The position numbers and the translations under genes were made by a program. From contig QEUP01000001.1 in the NCBI GenBank assembly GCA_003577145.1, positions 124,001-188,000 on the forward strand: DNA of 64,000 bases, given 5' to 3'. Shown here piece by piece: positions 22,222 through 62,883 of the stretch (position 1 is its first letter; the number at the start of each line of letters is the position of its first letter). The notes below the pieces were generated by a model that was given only the letters and a program-made list of their open reading frames with translations, was not told where the DNA came from and ran no database searches. Source of the DNA: Acidobacteriota bacterium (GTDB lineage Bacteria; Actinomycetota; Acidimicrobiia; Acidimicrobiales; Microtrichaceae).

Positions 22222-23892
22222 TCAGACGGCGGCGAGCCGGCGCTCGAAGCCGGTCTTGCGGAAGTTCTTGAGCCAGGCCAGGACCACGAGGTGCCCCTGG
22301 AACCGGCGTTTGGAGTCGCGCCACAACCGATGCCAGCGACCCCACCCTACGATCGGCCAGGCGAGGGGCAGCGAGATGGTCACGAGGCCGATGCGGGCCA
22401 GATGCAGGACCAGCGAGGTCGTCTTGAAGCGCCAGAGCCACGGGAACGCGTAGAAAGCGCGCATCAAGTTGATGGCCTCACGCTGCAGCTCTGCCGGTTC
22501 GGCTCCCTCATCGGGTTCGAACAACAGCCAGGTCCCGTCGTAGTACTCCCAGCCGAAGGGGTAGATCCGTCCCTCTTGTTCGAGGAACTCGCGGTCCTCG
22601 GTGCCCGGTAGGGGTGTGTAGAGGAGCGCTTGGAGCGTGTCGGGACGTACCCGCCGAATGAAGCGGCGGAAATGGCGTGCCCGCTCGCGAGCTGACATGC
22701 GGAGGAGCTGCGCGCCCTCCCCGGCGTGGTCACGTGCGTGCGGCGGAAGGGGGTACCCGAAGATGAGCATCATGTGCACGAAGAACCCGTGCCGCTTCCA
22801 TTCCCGGCTCCATTCGAGCATCTTCGATGGCTTGAGGGGCTTGCGCATGGCTCGCAGCTCTGCGGGGATGGGGGACTCGAAGCCGATCGCCACCGTCTTG
22901 ACCCCGGCTTGCCTCATGAGCTCGAGGACCTCGGGGCGCTCTGCCAGCGACAGGCGGTTCTGGGTGGTCAGATCGAGGCGTAGCTTGCGGTCCTTCTTGA
23001 TCTCGGCCAGGCCCCGCAGCCAATGCTCGAAGCCCGGCAGGTCCTGCTCGGAGCGGTCGTCGATCACGAAGAAGCGCCGCGCTCCCTTGCTGGAGAGGAC
23101 GATGAGTTGCTCGAGGAACCGCTGGGGCGAGATCCATCGGGCTCCGCTCTTGACGCGGCAGAACCGGCAACGGCCGTCACAGCCTCTCGTGCGCCCGACC
23201 GGGAAGATCTTGATGTTCGCGTAGCGCACGAGCGCGAAGTCGGGGTCGGGGAGGCGGTCCATCATCTCCTGAGGCACCTGGGCCTCGCCGGGATTCGAGA
23301 GGATCTCCGTTCCCCTCCGGTAGGAGATCCCCGAGATGTTCTCGAGGGAGTGCCCGTCGCGCAGGGCCGTCAGGAGCGTCCCGATCATGGGCTCGGCCTC
23401 ACCGCGGACCACCACGTCGGCACCGGCTTCGAGGAAGGGCGTCGGGTTGTCCATGGCATGCCATCCGCCCACGATGATCCGTTCGGGCCGGATCTCTTCT
23501 GGCATGCTCCGGTAGGCGCGGATGAGCTCCAAGCAGCGGGGTGCAGAGCTCGTCATGCCACAGGACAAGCCGATGAAGGCGGCGTACCTCTCACGTTGAA
23601 GGGCGCCATGGTCGGGTGCACCCGAGTCGTCACGCGGGCCCTTGCGACGCGGGCTGTAGTTGTTCTCGTCGATGACTTCGGCCGAGAGCCAGGGGCCGGT
23701 GTCGTCGACGCAGGACGCTTTCGCCACCGTGGCCACCATGACCGGCCCGAGCGCCGTCGTCTTGGTGGCCTGGTAACGGTAGATGTTGTGGGGAGGGAAC
23801 CGGCAGTTCACCACGCGCAGCAGCAGCGGGCTGCACGAAGCCGGGGATGGCGACCGCGGGTTGGGTGTTATGGCGACGTCGGTGATGGTCAT
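22222..23892 (-). CDS. B12-binding-domain radical SAM protein
   Basis: A 556-residue protein with an N-terminal cobalamin-binding-type domain (about 20-210; IGLSCGMTSSAPRCLELIRAYR, IIVGGWHAM and GEAEPMIGTLL fit the Rossmann-like B12 fold) and a radical-SAM core with the cluster motif CDGRCRFC near residue 228. FESPIPAELRAMRK and MLIFGYPLP follow in the TIM barrel. Such proteins modify lipids, tetrapyrroles and antibiotics. The C-terminal 60 residues include a hydrophobic stretch (LVLHLARIGLVTISLPLAWPIV) that could attach it to the membrane. It lies between pgsA and cinA, in opposite orientation. The substrate is unknown. Confidence 0.8.
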   Translation of the reverse strand: MTITDVAITPNPRSPSPASCSPLLLRVVNCRFPPHNIYRYQATKTTALGPVMVATVAKASCVDDTGPWLSAEVIDENNYSPRRKGPRDDSGAPDHGALQRERYAAFIGLSCGMTSSAPRCLELIRAYRSMPEEIRPERIIVGGWHAMDNPTPFLEAGADVVVRGEAEPMIGTLLTALRDGHSLENISGISYRRGTEILSNPGEAQVPQEMMDRLPDPDFALVRYANIKIFPVGRTRGCDGRCRFCRVKSGARWISPQRFLEQLIVLSSKGARRFFVIDDRSEQDLPGFEHWLRGLAEIKKDRKLRLDLTTQNRLSLAERPEVLELMRQAGVKTVAIGFESPIPAELRAMRKPLKPSKMLEWSREWKRHGFFVHMMLIFGYPLPPHARDHAGEGAQLLRMSARERARHFRRFIRRVRPDTLQALLYTPLPGTEDREFLEQEGRIYPFGWEYYDGTWLLFEPDEGAEPAELQREAINLMRAFYAFPWLWRFKTTSLVLHLARIGLVTISLPLAWPIVGWGRWHRLWRDSKRRFQGHLVVLAWLKNFRKTGFERRLAAV

Positions 23893-47664: not shown

Positions 47665-48150
47665 GTGAGCTTCGACGTGGGAGATCGCGTTGTCTATCCG
47701 CACCACGGTGCGGCAGTGATCGAGAAGAAGGAGAAGCGCAAGGCCTTCGGCGAGGTGAAGGAATACCTCGTCTTGAAGATGGCCCACGGCGACCTCACCC
47801 TCTCAGTCCCGGTCAGCATGGCCGAGGAGGTCGGCATGCGTCCGCCCATAGGTGAGGAGGAAGTCCAGGACCTCTTCGAGTTGCTGGCCAAGAAGGACGT
47901 GCGGGAACCGGCCAACTGGAGTCGACGCTTCAAGAACCACCAGGAGAAGCTCAAGTCGGGTGACGTCTACCAGGTCGCCGAGGTGGTCAGGAACCTGGCG
48001 CTGCGCGACCACTCGAAAGGCCTGTCTGCCGGCGAGAAGTCGATGTTCATCAAGGCCCGCGGTGTGCTCGTCTCCGAGCTGAGCTTCGCCCTCGATGTCT
48101 CCGAGGACGAAGCTCTCGCCGAGGTCGAGGATCAACTGGCGCTGGGCTGA
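47665..48150 (+). CDS. carD: CarD transcription factor
   Basis: A 161-residue CarD, which binds RNA polymerase beta and stabilises open complexes, especially at rRNA promoters. The Tudor-like domain begins VGDRVVYPHHGAAVIEKKEKR; the helical DNA-binding domain includes NWSRRFKNHQEKLKSGDVYQVAEVVRNL and LSAGEKSMFIKARGVLVSELSFAL. GTG 47665 follows AGGAGCAAAG. Its last codons are inside the first unit of a tandem repeat. Confidence 0.95.
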   Translation: MSFDVGDRVVYPHHGAAVIEKKEKRKAFGEVKEYLVLKMAHGDLTLSVPVSMAEEVGMRPPIGEEEVQDLFELLAKKDVREPANWSRRFKNHQEKLKSGDVYQVAEVVRNLALRDHSKGLSAGEKSMFIKARGVLVSELSFALDVSEDEALAEVEDQLALG

Positions 48151-48328
48151 CCGACCAAGCGCTGCTTGCAGCTGCGAATCGATCACCCCTGGAGGGTCGG
48201 CAGTTCGACTCTGCCTGGGCTGACCGACCAAGCGCTGCTTGCAGCTGCGAATCGATCACCCCTGGAGGGTCGGCAGTTCGACTCTGCCAGCGCTGACCGA
48301 CCAAGCGCTGCTTGCAGCTGCGAATCGA
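48142..48328. repeat. 73-bp tandem repeat (2.5 units) with tRNA T-arm-like stems
   Basis: Units start at 48142, 48215 and 48288 (last truncated at 48328); units one and two are almost identical. Each full unit ends with GGCAGTTCGACTCTGCC (48199-48215, 48272-48288), a 5-bp stem around TTCGACT exactly like a tRNA T-arm, preceded by an ACCC/GGGT hairpin like a long variable arm and by CGCTG-CTTGCAG-CTGCG, like an anticodon arm. No matching acceptor or D arm is present, so it is not a working tRNA gene. From 48329 to 48447 I see nothing. Confidence 0.75.
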
Positions 48329-48447
48329 CCGAGGCTGTCGCGCCGGGAGACCCCTATCGCCGAGCTGCGCCTGGCTCGACACGGCGCCCTCACAGCGGGG
48401 CGCCGCCTCCCTGTAGCCGCTCCTGGTATGCAGACCGTAGGTCTTGA

Positions 48448-49176
48448 TCACGGTAGTGGCTGCCGTCGGCGTGCGATCTCCCGTCGTCCCGCTTCAGTGG
48501 CGGGATCAGGATCGGCGGCGATGGGATCGCCGGGCGGGTGTCCCTCCGCACCCTCACCGGACCGAAGCGTCCGGAGCGTGTCCAGCAGGATGCGCAGATC
48601 CAGCGCAGGGGACTGGTGATCTACGTACTCCAGGTCGTGTTCGATGCGCTCGGCCCAGGTGAGGGTGTTCCGGCCCCTGACCTGTGCCAGGCCGGTGAGC
48701 CCCGGCCTGACGGCGTGCCGTCGACGCTGCCTCTTCTCGTAGCGCTCGACTTGATAGGGAAAGGTCGGGCGGGGCCCGACGATGCTCATGTCCCCCTTCA
48801 AGACGTTGATGAGCTGAGGTAGCTCATCGAGCGAGCTCCTCTTCAACCAGCGACCTACCCGGGTGCTGCGGTTGAGCTCGGGGGAGTCAGGGTTTTGACC
48901 GAGGACCATGGTGCGGAACTTGTAGATGTGGAACTCGCGCTCACCGAGGCCCACACGCTGTTGGCTGTAGACGACCGGTCCGCGGCTCGTGAGACGGATG
49001 GCGAGCGCGCAGACAAGGGCGACAAGCAGTGCCGGCACGGCGACGACGGCGAGCAGCGCCAGGTCGAAGAGTCGCTTGCCCCGGTACGGCCGGTCCCGTC
49101 CGGTCACACCCAGCCGCACGAGTTGTGCTTGATTCACCCGGTCGGGCCCCCGGCTCGCGGCGTTCAACGGCTCCAT
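48448..49176 (-). CDS. Undecaprenyl-phosphate sugar phosphotransferase-like
   Basis: A 242-residue sugar transferase of the bacterial WcaJ/short EpsL type. One membrane segment (LFDLALLAVVAVPALLVALVCALAI) is followed by GPVVYSQQRVGLGEREFHIYKFRTM, RSSLDELPQLINVLKGDMSIVGPRP and RPGLTGLAQVRGRN, all family signatures. It starts a lipid-linked glycan by loading the first sugar phosphate. No other polysaccharide gene is next to it. The ATG at 49176 overlaps the hydratase stop by 13 nt; GTG 49137 is an alternative start. Confidence 0.9.
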   Translation of the reverse strand: MEPLNAASRGPDRVNQAQLVRLGVTGRDRPYRGKRLFDLALLAVVAVPALLVALVCALAIRLTSRGPVVYSQQRVGLGEREFHIYKFRTMVLGQNPDSPELNRSTRVGRWLKRSSLDELPQLINVLKGDMSIVGPRPTFPYQVERYEKRQRRRHAVRPGLTGLAQVRGRNTLTWAERIEHDLEYVDHQSPALDLRILLDTLRTLRSGEGAEGHPPGDPIAADPDPATEAGRREIARRRQPLP

Positions 49177-50036
49177 CCCTGGGCGATGTTCTCGCCGCTG
49201 TCCCGTTCTCGTACGGCCTGCTTGAAGCCGACCTCCTCGGCTCGGCGCTTGAACCACTCCCCCTCGGGGGTGTGGCGGGTGATGCCGTCGAAGAGCGTCG
49301 CCAGCACTTGGGTCTGGTTGAGGCCCATGGCCTCGATCGCATGGTTGACCATGAGCTTTTGCATCATCAACTGGTTGCGGGGAACGCCCTTCACCCGGTC
49401 GGCGATCTGCGCCACTCTCGCGTCGAGGTCATCGGGCGGCACCGCCTCGAGGACCAGGCCGATGTCGGCCGCTTCGCGTCCGGTTATGAGGTCCCCGGTG
49501 AACAGCATGCGCTTGGCGCGCTCCGCGCCGATCCGGTAAGCCCACATGGCGGTTGTGGGGCAGCCCCAGACACGAGCCGGTGGGTACCCGATCATGGCGT
49601 CCTCAGCGATCACGACGAGGTCGCAGCACAGCGCGATGTCGCTGCCACCTGCCACTGCGTAGCCGCGTACCTTCGCGATGGTCGGCTTGTGTGACCTCCA
49701 CAGGGACATGAAGTCGATCGTGTTGCGGTGCATCATCGTGAAGTCGAGCATCGGGTCCCACGGAAGCTCTGCGCCGTCCTCGGAGCGGGCGGCGCCTTGG
49801 GTTCCGCCTGTGCCGGCGATCTCGGCGAACGCCTGGAGGTCGTAGCCGGCGCAGAAGGCCCTGCCTGCACCGGAGACGACGATGACGTGGACCCCGCGGT
49901 CGCTGTTCGCCAACTCGACCGCCGCGGCGATCTCGGCCGGCATGGAGAGATCGATAGCGTTGAGTCTGTCGGGGCGGTTGAGCGTGATGGTCGCCACACG
50001 ATCGTCGACCTCGTAGGTGATGCTGTGAAAGCTCAT
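49164..50036 (-). CDS. Enoyl-CoA hydratase/isomerase family protein
   Basis: A 290-residue crotonase-fold protein. The first oxyanion-hole strand is AFCAGYDLQAF and the second VRGYAVAGGSDIALCCDLVV; ITLNRPDRLNAIDLSM is the usual N-terminus. The usual catalytic glutamates of true hydratases are not obvious (GCPTTAMWA replaces the common segment), so another crotonase reaction is possible. It is divergent from the YihY gene and coupled to the sugar transferase by overlap. Confidence 0.88.
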   Translation of the reverse strand: MSFHSITYEVDDRVATITLNRPDRLNAIDLSMPAEIAAAVELANSDRGVHVIVVSGAGRAFCAGYDLQAFAEIAGTGGTQGAARSEDGAELPWDPMLDFTMMHRNTIDFMSLWRSHKPTIAKVRGYAVAGGSDIALCCDLVVIAEDAMIGYPPARVWGCPTTAMWAYRIGAERAKRMLFTGDLITGREAADIGLVLEAVPPDDLDARVAQIADRVKGVPRNQLMMQKLMVNHAIEAMGLNQTQVLATLFDGITRHTPEGEWFKRRAEEVGFKQAVRERDSGENIAQGWSR

Positions 50037-50169
50037 GACCGTGTTCGCCTCGCCTCGCCTCGTCGACTGGGTTCGGTGGACCAAGAGCACCTTAGGTCGG
50101 ACCCTCGCTAGTGTCCTGCCAGACCGGATCGACCGGGATCGACAAGCGGGAAGCTCGAGTTCGATTGTG

Positions 50170-51057
50170 ATGTCGTTGAGGCGACGCATGCGAGGGCACC
50201 GGTGGCTGTCCGAGGTCGCCGAGGTCACTGGTGACATCGGCCGTGACTGGAAGGCGGATCGGGTCAGCTCGCTGGGTGCCGAGATCGCGTTCTGGGGTGT
50301 TCTCGCCATCTTCCCAGCGCTCCTGGCGGTCACCGCGATGATCGGAAGTCTCGAGACGATCACGGGCGCTGGTTTCGCCGAGCAGGCCCGAGAGACGATC
50401 ACCGAGGGACTCGACCGGCTCTTCGGCGGCAACGAGGCGGCCATGGCACCGTTCCTGGACATCCTGAACAGCTCGAATGCCGGGGTGGCTGTCGTCGGTC
50501 TCGTGGGTGCCCTCTACACGACCTCTCGCGGTGTCGTGGCAGCAATCAACGGCCTGACCGTCGTGTACGACGTGCCCGAAACCCGATCGTGGCTGCGTCT
50601 GCGCCTGCTGGCCTTCGGGCTCTCATTCGCGGCGGTGGTCGCCTACGTGCTGGTGCTGGCGGTGTTCATCCTGGGTCCTCTGCTCGGGCTCGCCGACGAC
50701 GTCGACAGCGGTGCCTCCCAAGCCGTTTGGTCCTGGGTGCGCGGGCCGTTCCTCGTCGTGGCTCTCGCGGTGGGCGCCGCCACGCTCATGCACATGGCGC
50801 CGAGCCGGCGCAGCCCGTGGCGCTGGGACCTGCCGGGAGCGCTTCTCTCAACCGTGTTCTGGGGGTTGGCAGTGGTCGGATTCCGCATCTACATCACGGT
50901 CGCGAGCAGGGGCAACGAGGTCTACGGCGTGATCGGGGGAGCGATCACCTTGATGCTGTTCATGTACATCATGAGCATCGGCCTGCTCGTCGGGGGCGTG
51001 CTCAACTCGGTCCTCATTCGCCGCTACGGCCCGGTTCGGCCTACCGGCTCCGGCTAG
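50170..51057 (+). CDS. YihY/virulence factor BrkB family membrane protein
   Basis: A 295-residue protein with six hydrophobic segments and the family blocks SSLGAEIAFWGVLAIFPALLAVTAMIG, YTTSRGVVAAINGLTVVYDV, PSRRSPWRWDLPGALLSTVFWG and YGVIGGAITLMLFMYIMSIGLLVGGVLNS. The former name RNase BN is not correct for this family; function is unclear. Start ATG 50170 (GTG 50167 possible). The stop codon overlaps a promoter-like TAGGTA before the next gene. Confidence 0.88.
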   Translation: MSLRRRMRGHRWLSEVAEVTGDIGRDWKADRVSSLGAEIAFWGVLAIFPALLAVTAMIGSLETITGAGFAEQARETITEGLDRLFGGNEAAMAPFLDILNSSNAGVAVVGLVGALYTTSRGVVAAINGLTVVYDVPETRSWLRLRLLAFGLSFAAVVAYVLVLAVFILGPLLGLADDVDSGASQAVWSWVRGPFLVVALAVGAATLMHMAPSRRSPWRWDLPGALLSTVFWGLAVVGFRIYITVASRGNEVYGVIGGAITLMLFMYIMSIGLLVGGVLNSVLIRRYGPVRPTGSG

Positions 51058-51104
51058 GTACCATCAACTGGTCGAGGCGGACCCGACACCTCATGGGGGA
51101 ACCA

Positions 51105-52373
51105 ATGGTGGCACCTGAATCCAACAGCCTCCGGTTCGAGGCCCCCCACAGGCCGGCGTTCGTGCGGATCCTCAACGAGGTGGGCCGACGGATCGAGGCG
51201 CTGGGCCTGAACCCCTTCGAGATCGACGAGTCGCGTATTACCGCGGCAGTCGAGAAGCAGACCGGTCTGCACGACTTCGGCGAGGACCTCTACCGCCAAC
51301 CGATGAGAGTGCTGATCGACTCGTTCAACAGCGAGGCGCGGCTGAACCCGCTGGGTCGGTACTTCGCCCGGGGCTTTGTGCTGGCTGCTCTCAGGAACCG
51401 ACTCCAACTCCAGGACTGGTGGACCCGCCATCCGGAGATCCTCGATCAGCCGGTGGTGAGACCCATAGTCGTGATCGGGCTGCCACGGACAGGGAGCACT
51501 CTCCTCCAGAACCTGCTCGCTCAGGACCTGCACAACCGCTCTCTGCTCGGGTGGGAGGCCTCGTTTCCGACACCCCCCCCGGAGCGGGAGACCTACCTCA
51601 CCGACCCCAGGATTCGACGCGTGGAGATGGTGTCGAAGGTCGTGGACTACCTGTCACCCGCGGCGCGGGGGCTCCACCCGGTAGGTGCGACGATGCCGAC
51701 CGAGTGCGTCACCTTGTTCGCCAACAGCTTCGGCAACATGGACATCTCGGGCATCAACTGGGTTCCCAGCTATCTCGACAACTGGCTGGCAAGCGACTTG
51801 ACGCCTCACTACCGGTACTTCAAGAAGCAGTTGCAGCTACTCCAATGGCAGAACCCGCGGGAGCGTTGGTCCCTGAAGACGCCGGCGCACCTGTTCGCCC
51901 TCGACTCGCTGCTGGAGGTCTTCCCCGACGCCTGCGTCGTGCAGACCCACCGCGACCCCTCGCGGGTCATCGGGTCGTTCTGCAGCCTCGCAGCCACCCT
52001 CTACGCGATCGGCAGCGACGAGGTCGACGTCGATGCGCTGGGAAGGGCGTGGTGCGAGGTGTGGGCGGTCGGCCTCGATCGCACCATGGCCTTCCGCCGC
52101 AAGGCCGGCGAGTCCGATCAGTTCCTCGATGTCCACTACCGCGACCTGCTGGCTGACCCGGTCGGGACGGTGCACCGGATCTATGACCACTTCGGGCTGG
52201 AGATGGCGAAGACCGCCGACACGCACATGCGGGCCTTCATGGTGAAGAATCCCCAGCACAAGAAGGGTGTTCACCGCTACACGCTCGAGCAGTTCGGTCT
52301 GGCGGCGGCCGACGTCGAACGGCGCTACGCCGAGTACTGCCGCGAATACGGGGTCGCCACCGGGTCCGGTTGA
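51105..52373 (+). CDS. Sulfotransferase family protein
   Basis: A 422-residue PAPS-dependent sulfotransferase. The 5'-phosphosulfate loop is PIVVIGLPRTGSTLLQNLLAQD near residue 116 and the 3'-phosphate site is THRDPSRVIGSFCS near residue 281, both intact. An N-terminal domain of about 110 residues precedes the core. This form is common in actinobacteria and marine bacteria and is thought to sulfate lipids or small molecules. No PAPS synthesis genes are adjacent. ATG 51105 follows GGGGGA. Confidence 0.87.
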   Translation: MVAPESNSLRFEAPHRPAFVRILNEVGRRIEALGLNPFEIDESRITAAVEKQTGLHDFGEDLYRQPMRVLIDSFNSEARLNPLGRYFARGFVLAALRNRLQLQDWWTRHPEILDQPVVRPIVVIGLPRTGSTLLQNLLAQDLHNRSLLGWEASFPTPPPERETYLTDPRIRRVEMVSKVVDYLSPAARGLHPVGATMPTECVTLFANSFGNMDISGINWVPSYLDNWLASDLTPHYRYFKKQLQLLQWQNPRERWSLKTPAHLFALDSLLEVFPDACVVQTHRDPSRVIGSFCSLAATLYAIGSDEVDVDALGRAWCEVWAVGLDRTMAFRRKAGESDQFLDVHYRDLLADPVGTVHRIYDHFGLEMAKTADTHMRAFMVKNPQHKKGVHRYTLEQFGLAAADVERRYAEYCREYGVATGSG

Positions 52374-52648
52374 GATCCGCGGCCCCCGACCTGGTGGTCG
52401 CGTCCGCCTCGTCCCACGCGGAGCAGGTCCTTCCGACGGCGCAGTACCTGCTCCGGCAGCTGACTCCACATGCCGAGACGATGATGTCGTTCGACTCCTG
52501 AGCCCATGCCGAGCGGTTGGACACAGCGGGTCATGGCGGTCACAGCGTGGAGCTGCGGTGCTCAGCTACCGTACTGGTGCTGCCCCCAGATCCATCCAGG
52601 GCACGCTTGCAGGCGTCGGATCCGGCCGTCGGAGGGTTGAGACCCATC

Positions 52649-53689
52649 GTGTTCGTTTCAATTCCGAGTCCCAGCAGCGGTGGTGTCGAGATCGGTCCTC
52701 TCAACCTCCGCCTCTACGGGGTGATGATCGCGCTGGGCGTCCTGGCAGCGGTCTGGCTCGCACAGCGGCAGTGGAGGAGCCGCGGCGGGGACCCGGAGGA
52801 CATCACAGTCATCGCGCTCTGGGCGGTTCCTGCCGGCCTGATCGGAGCACGGCTCTATCATGTGATCACCGACTGGAGCCGCCTCTACGCCGACTCTCCC
52901 CAGGACATTGTCAAGATCTGGCAGGGTGGGCTGGGCATTCCGGGTGGCATCGCGCTCGGCGCGCTGGTCGGCGCCGTCGTCGCTCACCGCAGGGGCCTCG
53001 ACTGGCGCACGATCGCCGACTGCGTGGCCCCCGCTCTGCCCCTGGCGCAGGCAATAGGCCGCCTGGGCAACTACTTCAATCAGGAGCTGTACGGCAGGCC
53101 GACCGATCTGCCGTGGGGGCTGGAGATCGACAGCGAGAACCGGCCAGTCGAGTACCTCGACCAGGAGACGTTTCACCCGACGTTCCTGTACGAGGGTCTG
53201 TGGAACATCGGTGTGATGTTCATCCTGCTCTGGATCGACCGGAGGCACCGCCTCAAGCCCGGCCGGCTGTTCGGGGCCTACCTGGGCCTGTACTTCGTCG
53301 GCCGACTCTGGGTGGAATCCATTCGTATCGACACCGCCACCGAGATCCTCGGCCTGCGCGTGAACATCTGGTTGAGCCTGGTGATGATCGTGGTCTCGCT
53401 GATATGGGTGTTCTGGGGTGGCTCTCCTGTCGCAGGCGAGGCCCCGGCGGTGGTGGCAGGGGACGCCGCACCGGACACGACCCCCGCGCGCCGGGCTGTC
53501 GACGCCGACGCGAGCGACGCTGAGCTCGATGGGACCGAGACCGCCGCAGGTGGCGATGAGACTGCCGCCGGCAGCGATGGGACTGCCGCCTCGCCCGCGC
53601 CCGGCAGCGATGAGACTGCCGCCGGCAGCGATGAGACAGCCGCCTCGCCCACAGCCGGCAGCGATGAGACAGCCGCCCCTGACCCCTGA
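52649..53689 (+). CDS. lgt: Prolipoprotein diacylglyceryl transferase with repeat tail
   Basis: A 346-residue Lgt that attaches diacylglycerol to lipobox cysteines. The signature GRLGNYFNQELYGRPTDLPWGL and the arginine-containing GLIGARLYHVI and DSENRPVEYLDQETFHPTFLYEGLWN are present with seven membrane segments. After the last one (IWLSLVMIVVSLIWVFWG) is an acidic tail of about 90 residues with repeats of GSDETAA. GTG 52649 follows GGAGGG; TTG 52637 is less likely. The lipoprotein at 58725 is a client candidate. Confidence 0.93.
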   Translation: MFVSIPSPSSGGVEIGPLNLRLYGVMIALGVLAAVWLAQRQWRSRGGDPEDITVIALWAVPAGLIGARLYHVITDWSRLYADSPQDIVKIWQGGLGIPGGIALGALVGAVVAHRRGLDWRTIADCVAPALPLAQAIGRLGNYFNQELYGRPTDLPWGLEIDSENRPVEYLDQETFHPTFLYEGLWNIGVMFILLWIDRRHRLKPGRLFGAYLGLYFVGRLWVESIRIDTATEILGLRVNIWLSLVMIVVSLIWVFWGGSPVAGEAPAVVAGDAAPDTTPARRAVDADASDAELDGTETAAGGDETAAGSDGTAASPAPGSDETAAGSDETAASPTAGSDETAAPDP

Positions 53690-62601: not shown

Positions 62602-62715
62602 TGGCGATCTGGGACAGCCGAACAGCGCCAGGCACACCAGAAGCGACCTGTCGACCCCGGGAAGAAGTGGGCTTGGCTGTTTGACTGCGCGCAGCCGACG
62701 TGGTCTGCTGGTGAG

Positions 62716-62795
62716 CACATCAGGAGCGGCCCGAGAGGGTCCGGCAACCTGGGACGGACACCCAAGGTGCTATCCCGTCGCCAAGCGGGGATGTG
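62716..62795 (+). ncRNA. SAM riboswitch (SAM-I/SAM-IV superfamily, compact form)
   Basis: Stem P1 is CACATC (62716-62721) with GATGTG (62790-62795). The class-defining GGCAACC (62743-62749) and AAGGTGCTA (62764-62772) lie inside with the right spacing; P3 is ACCTGGG/CCCAAGGT and P4 CCCG/CGGG (around 62774-62789). The P2 region is much shorter than in ordinary SAM-I and lacks its kink-turn, as in the actinobacterial SAM-I/IV variants. Gene context, homoserine acetyltransferase, is the expected one for methionine feedback. Confidence 0.85.
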
Positions 62796-62883
62796 GTTCC
62801 TGGAGCAGCGCAGCTGCCGGGCACAACGAAATGTCCGAGCGTCACCCCCAGGGGAGCGGGATCGGCGCACGGCGCCGAAGGTG

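Follow-up and report, generated by a model that had tools for sequence, protein, structure and literature searches.

A 73-bp tandem array at the 3′ end of carD carries a segment resembling the 3′ half of tRNA-Val(CAC)

Introduction

Tyrosine integrases that use an anticodon-centred site in a tRNA gene split off its part between the anticodon loop and the 3′ end, and 2083 of the 3919 islands in the Islander table have such a site (PMC4383910). For tandem repeats that contain tRNA fragments, our literature search found nothing but PMC9897764, which deals with non-canonical tRNA gene fragments of prokaryotes. Here, we describe a tandem array beside carD whose unit includes a segment, here named V, that resembles the same anticodon loop to 3′ end piece of tRNA-Val(CAC), joined to a segment, X, that does not resemble it. 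The array lies in a 64-kb window (the whole stretch of DNA that was analyzed), and an earlier note on this window had proposed for it derivation from a tRNA, a tRNA mimic or an integration hotspot.

Results

The carD gene (47665..48150, + strand) has a GTG start and a TGA stop; its open reading frame carries the Pfam domains CarD_TRCF_RID and CarD_C, and the protein is up to 85% identical to the CarD of relatives. TRF detected an array at 48142..48328 with a period of 73 bp, 2.6 copies, 98% matches and a score of 360, the highest among the 8 rows for the window, and the same array was found by a repeat search and as a run of matches at period 73. This bears out the 73-bp tandem repeat reported at 48142-48328 in the earlier note, and also its placing of the carD stop codon in the first unit, as TGA sits at 48148-48150 in copy 1. 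The array is almost entirely beyond the carD coding region, and its 73-bp unit is not a multiple of 3.

When each base was compared with the base 73 positions further on, we found an unbroken match over 48142-48215, then 2 mismatches in 3 bases, and matching that resumed over 48219-48255. The anatomy of the array is X-V-X-V-X, with X (37 bp) in three identical copies and V (33 bp) in two identical copies. The carD stop is held by X copy 1 (48146..48182); X copy 2 is at 48219..48255, and X copy 3 is at 48292..48328, where the array stops at the expected start of another V. V copy 1 occupies 48183..48215, and V copy 2 with an acceptor-like tail occupies 48256..48298 (the 33 bp run to 48288), both on the + strand. 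The joints after the V copies are 3 bases each, TGG in copy 1 and AGC in copy 2. Array copies 1 and 2 show 100% identity over 73 bp, and copy 3 retains X alone. Together, the TRF score and the identical copies show a head-to-tail tandem duplication above chance.

Used as a blastn query against the own genome, the array matched itself, a truncated tRNA-Val on contig C43 and the tRNA-Val(CAC) gene on contig C3. The earlier note had counted the lack of any related tRNA in the genome against its proposal, and a related tRNA was found. In a comparison with 46 tRNA/tmRNA sequences (the ARAGORN reads of the fetched own-genome loci), tRNA-Val(CAC) was the best relative of V, with a raw score of 44 versus 31 for the second, and the own tmRNA, rejected as a source of V, reached 18. 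When the window was compared with 30 own tRNAs, the array ranked top with a score of 42 (E 1.7e-4), against a maximum of 37 and a mean of 31 in 60 simulated windows. Aligned without gaps to tRNA-Val(CAC) positions 34-76, V copy 2 is identical at 34/43 positions (79%) and V copy 1, with its tail to 48225, at 32/43. The core of copy 2, made of variable loop and T-arm, is identical at 20/21 positions, and the flanks at 7/12 and 7/10. These in-register flanks outside the T-arm core (14/22) gave a shuffle P of 0.0005, which rises to 0.012 if end points and copy may vary, so that we take the flank agreement as moderate support. With blastn scoring, 26 nt alone are aligned (positions 46-71), less than the whole half. 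With +1/-1 scoring, the likeness starts at U33 in the anticodon loop, which is the base at which copy 3 ceases to follow copies 1 and 2; the similarity extension score is 2 for copy 1 and 6 for copy 2.

The other half of the unit behaves differently. X agrees with tRNA-Val at 12/33 positions in register. For the upstream part of the unit, shuffled sequences attained the gapped tRNA-Val score in 17% of cases and the best score with any of the tested tRNAs in 28%. Because X is without tRNA-Val similarity, the unit does not represent a duplicated tRNA, and we rejected the duplication of a whole tRNA at a period of one tRNA; the closeness of 73 bp to tRNA length, which the earlier note had pointed out, looks coincidental, as one half of the unit has no likeness to a tRNA. 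We also sought, and rejected, a better source tRNA elsewhere in the class: of 395 genomes, the own one alone contains the 28-base end of V with no more than 3 mismatches. The proposed derivation from a tRNA is therefore supported for the 33-43 nt V segment, which resembles the 3′ half of tRNA-Val(CAC), but not for X. Judging from these alignments, V is probably descended from a tRNA-Val(CAC)-type gene, of which it would represent the 3′ half.

The T-arm GGCAG-TTCGACT-CTGCC is present and perfect in each of the two units that contain V, at 48199-48215 and 48272-48288, as the earlier note had it. The window has three perfect 5-bp stems with a TTCRANY loop, namely the two array copies and one on the minus strand near 22237; with the duplicated pair counted once, these make 2, whereas 60 simulated windows had 0.08 on average and never more than 1. 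The anticodon-arm-like stem was seen as GCTG-CTTG-CAGC, but its loop has 4 bases, not 7. ARAGORN called 0 tRNA genes in the 64-kb window, hence no intact one, and Rfam, with E allowed up to 10, matched no tRNA model in 47950-48550, so that the check with tRNA models suggested in the earlier note came back negative. The array is not a tRNA. A class II tRNA with a long variable arm was likewise rejected, as neither program called a tRNA and the hairpins ACCC-CTGGA-GGGT and GCTG-CTTG-CAGC, picked by eye, form no cloverleaf.

We also considered the array as RNA. The lowest-energy fold omits the T-arm and has instead a shifted pairing centred on GTCG-GCAGTT-CGAC. The energy of the V hairpin is unexceptional for this GC-rich window, as 10% (+) and 1.7% (-) of 55-nt stretches are at least as stable. 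Versus shuffles, the fold z-scores were -1.9 (+) and -3.8 (-) over 221 nt, -2.5 and -3.6 for the V hairpin and -1.3 for one unit on the + strand, for stretches that were chosen by hand and with tandem copies that inflate z. No terminator-like site was found at the array, and an intrinsic terminator was rejected on that ground. Elsewhere in the window, at 62712-62840 (+), a SAM-I/IV riboswitch scored 44.8 bits against an Rfam gathering score of 41.1.

Of the 397 genomes searched in the order, the array's own was the only one to show it, and five others showed short or tRNA matches alone. Two of these outside matches (L071 and L073) are tRNA-Val(CAC) genes; the other three (L070, L072 and L074) have no ARAGORN tRNA and look like chance. 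The comparison of carD 3′ flanks covered 32 of 59 relatives where carD was found, and in the 600 bp 3′ of carD, covering 37 stretches from these 32 relatives, none of the matches listed (E up to 1) exceeded 13 nt; the relatives searched included no second genome of the array's genus. A cis-regulatory RNA of carD would be expected to be conserved, and no such conservation appeared at the carD 3′ end of the 32 relatives. Other arrays of short period (12-24 bp) lie 3′ of carD in 3 of the 32. The rest of the window held no second V or X beyond 14-nt matches. At up to 3 mismatches, the T-arm core occurs on the array's contig in the array alone and in the own genome at six sites, including C53:32313 with 3 mismatches. 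A dispersed repeat family was rejected, given that, judged from the sites other than C53:32313, the own genome has the array alone plus short T-arm matches. A mobile element shared with others was rejected on 0 matches in plasmids and phages, in collections whose coverage possibly excludes the records nearest the own genome. The exact unit patterns had 0 matches in viral contigs and 0 in genome contigs, and a degenerate tRNA-Val-half pattern had 0 in viral contigs, in both cases in sets from which the records nearest the own genome were possibly left out.

The gene order class II ribonucleotide reductase, carD, lgt is shared by 7 of the 8 relative stretches that we fetched; the eighth, L118, showed carD alone. 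carD and lgt are 0.1 to 2.1 kb apart in the 7 relatives and 4.4 kb apart here, where the array adjoins the carD end of a 4.2-kb segment (48329..52516) without counterpart in the carD-lgt interval of those 7. By Pfam and tblastn synteny, this segment encodes a sugar transferase (-), an enoyl-CoA hydratase (-), a BrkB-type protein (+) and a sulfotransferase (+), none of which had a match in the 8 fetched relative stretches (tblastn, E up to 1e-10). Pfam naming covered 12 window proteins, and the names of these four carD-lgt genes are metabolic or membrane, with no recombinase among them. The length of the interval between the ribonucleotide reductase gene and carD also varies in relatives. As the neighbourhood is generally changeable, the position of the array at the start of the segment is weak evidence for a hotspot.

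Other tandem repeats were seen around these genes. In L115 (12581-13026) and L120 (7615-7814), the interval from the ribonucleotide reductase gene to carD contains arrays with periods of 54 and 81, which are possibly coding, because both periods are multiples of 3. In the window, 21/54-bp tandem repeats (53537-53677) lie where the lgt frame has its 3′ end, and 30-45-bp tandem repeats come right after the lgt match in L115 (6593-6685) and L116 (6266-6354). These lgt-end repeats are perhaps a repetitive C-terminal tail.

The tRNA-Val(CAC) gene was searched for in 33 genomes of the family. In the own genome, a displaced 3′ half of it lies at G000:C43:58442-58486 (93%, positions 32-76). In the genome with handle G021, another (80%, from position 32) lies at G021:C303:4583-4628, 2.5 kb from an intact tRNA-Val(CAC) at G021:C303:2018-2094; an intact gene and a displaced half at this distance (locus L127) have the layout of a small integrated element. 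A third site, G019:C92:136-175 (85%, from position 36), has no ARAGORN tRNA and is probably also a displaced tRNA-Val(CAC) 3′ half. The C43 half (locus L002) sits between the end of an ORF and a terminator-like hairpin. Its anticodon-stem strand is GGCAG, which matches L073 from another family of the order and not the GTAGG of the own tRNA-Val(CAC), so that this half may stem from another lineage.

The genome-wide search for recombinases was a search for tyrosine integrases (PF00589). It gave 10 matches in the own genome, of which, as raw counts, 6 are up to 5 kb and 4 up to 1 kb from a tRNA gene. Contigs C10, C12, C35, C42, C61 and C63 have integrase matches less than 5 kb from a tRNA (Met, Arg, Met, Arg, Ala and Gly, respectively). 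This suggests that the own genome holds several tRNA-integrated elements. No tyrosine integrase is near the array: on its contig, C27, the sole PF00589 match (C27:103085, an open frame of 300 aa) is 69 kb upstream.

Discussion

We lean, by a modest degree of confidence, towards reading the array as a neutral, decayed half-tRNA relic beside carD that was recently duplicated in tandem and has no function. In this scenario, a 3′ fragment of a tRNA-Val(CAC)-type gene, running from the anticodon loop to the CCA end, would have reached the stop codon side of carD and decayed there. Such a fragment would correspond to what remains after a tyrosine integrase has acted on its target tRNA gene, or to what the integrase's element has in its attP, and the boundaries of V, with its relatives elsewhere, lead us to infer that V may have arrived as an integrase scar or attP fragment. 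A half-tRNA scar is plausible because displaced tRNA-Val(CAC) 3′ halves occur elsewhere in the genome and family. Later, a 73-bp stretch comprising the relic V and the unrelated 37-bp X would have been duplicated in tandem, possibly by replication slippage or unequal recombination. The identity of the copies suggests that this duplication was recent or that the copies are still homogenized. The lack of conservation agrees with this reading, as the array was found neither in the other 396 of the 397 genomes of the order nor within 600 bp 3′ of carD in the 32 relatives. Several features fit less simply. The contrast between core (20/21) and flanks (14/22) disfavours a simple uniform decay; a different source tRNA would give such a contrast, and none was found in the 395 genomes of the class. 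The blastn alignment is confined to 26 nt, copy 1 extends the likeness less well than copy 2, and neither an intact tRNA or a second V elsewhere in the window nor a tyrosine integrase close to the array was found. Moreover, an att scar does not account for X and its threefold copying. The evidence does not indicate a function for the array.

Rather unlikely, in our judgement, is a plain tandem duplication of ordinary intergenic DNA in which the likeness of the T-arm to tRNA-Val arose by chance. The lack of tRNA similarity in X, the lack of a covariance match to tRNA and a flank P no better than 0.012 with free end points are all consistent with it, as are the arrays of period 30-81, with scores up to 273, in 154 kb of relatives, whose copies are less alike; however, the window's blastn E of 1.7e-4 and a score above that of every simulated window speak against chance. 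We regard as improbable a live secondary attachment site, where tandem half-tRNA cores would be used by an integrase targeting tRNA-Val(CAC) and the carD-lgt interval would be an insertion hotspot. The hotspot of the earlier note finds indirect support in the half-tRNA scars elsewhere, in the integrase matches close to tRNA genes and in the 4.2-kb segment that starts at the array, but no att partner was found, given that V and X do not recur in the window beyond 14 nt and that the T-arm core is confined to the array on its contig, and neither a nearby tyrosine integrase nor a recombinase among the four carD-lgt genes was seen. In addition, the intervals flanking carD vary in relatives even though none of these showed the array, and L115 and L120 have other tandem arrays upstream of carD. 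Still less probable is the stronger form of this idea, that the half-tRNA cores at the carD stop are a working, amplified secondary attachment site at which tRNA-Val(CAC) elements insert harmlessly, the copy number changing with each insertion or excision.

A structured RNA in the carD 3′ UTR, acting as a terminator, a stabilizer or a tRNA mimic cut by RNase P/Z, is in our view very doubtful. The array folds somewhat better than shuffles (z -1.3 to -3.8), but the stretches were chosen by hand and tandem copies inflate these values, equal stability is reached by 10% (+) and 1.7% (-) of the window's 55-nt stretches, and neither a terminator-like site nor a tRNA nor a counterpart 3′ of carD in the 32 relatives was found; the tRNA mimic of the earlier note is unsupported on the same grounds, the T-arm not being the preferred fold. 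That the copy number is an assembly artefact could be imagined for a draft of 68 contigs, but the different joints after the two V copies make it highly improbable, and a 73-bp unit is shorter than usual sequencing reads. We give almost no credence to a minimal CRISPR-like array with X as 37-bp repeats and V plus 3 bases as 36-bp spacers, the spacer being a tRNA fragment. Its geometry alone suggests it, together with the tRNA fragment recorded as a CRISPR spacer in PMC9897764; against it, the 96.6% complete genome has no Cas1 match, the two "spacers" are alike in 34/36 bases, the first repeat holds the carD stop codon and X was found nowhere else in the genome or order. A CRISPR array was rejected for the absence of Cas1 and for the likeness of the spacers.

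If the decayed relic is the right reading, the array is one more tRNA gene fragment that persists as a worn scar, missed by annotation tools and easily mistaken for a tRNA gene. It changes no view of carD or of tRNA biology.

Among described systems, the array is closest to the 3′ tRNA fragment at the attR of islands with an anticodon-centred site, as catalogued in Islander. In both, the part of a tRNA gene between anticodon loop and CCA end is separated from the intact gene, and other displaced halves of this tRNA-Val(CAC) are present in the own genome and family. As Islander looks for, V matches the end part of a tDNA of the own genome (20/21 in the core, 34/43 to position 76, positions 46-71 by blastn). 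Islander also places the island between the tDNA and its downstream 3′ fragment, and such a placement is not seen here: carD, a gene of shared order in 7 of 8 relatives, is directly upstream of the array. Unlike an Islander-type fragment, the array is 79% identical over 43 nt and has two copies, with no tyrosine integrase near it and no intact tRNA at its other end, the intact tRNA-Val(CAC) being on C3. With the non-canonical tRNA gene fragments of prokaryotes (PMC9897764), it shares a partial tRNA with a T-arm and without D-arm or acceptor; compared with these fragments, it is too diverged for ARAGORN or Rfam and is embedded in a tandem repeat. Finally, it resembles an ordinary intergenic minisatellite in its identical head-to-tail copies, its fractional copy number and its presence in one lineage alone, but differs from it in that each full unit carries a half-tRNA-like segment.
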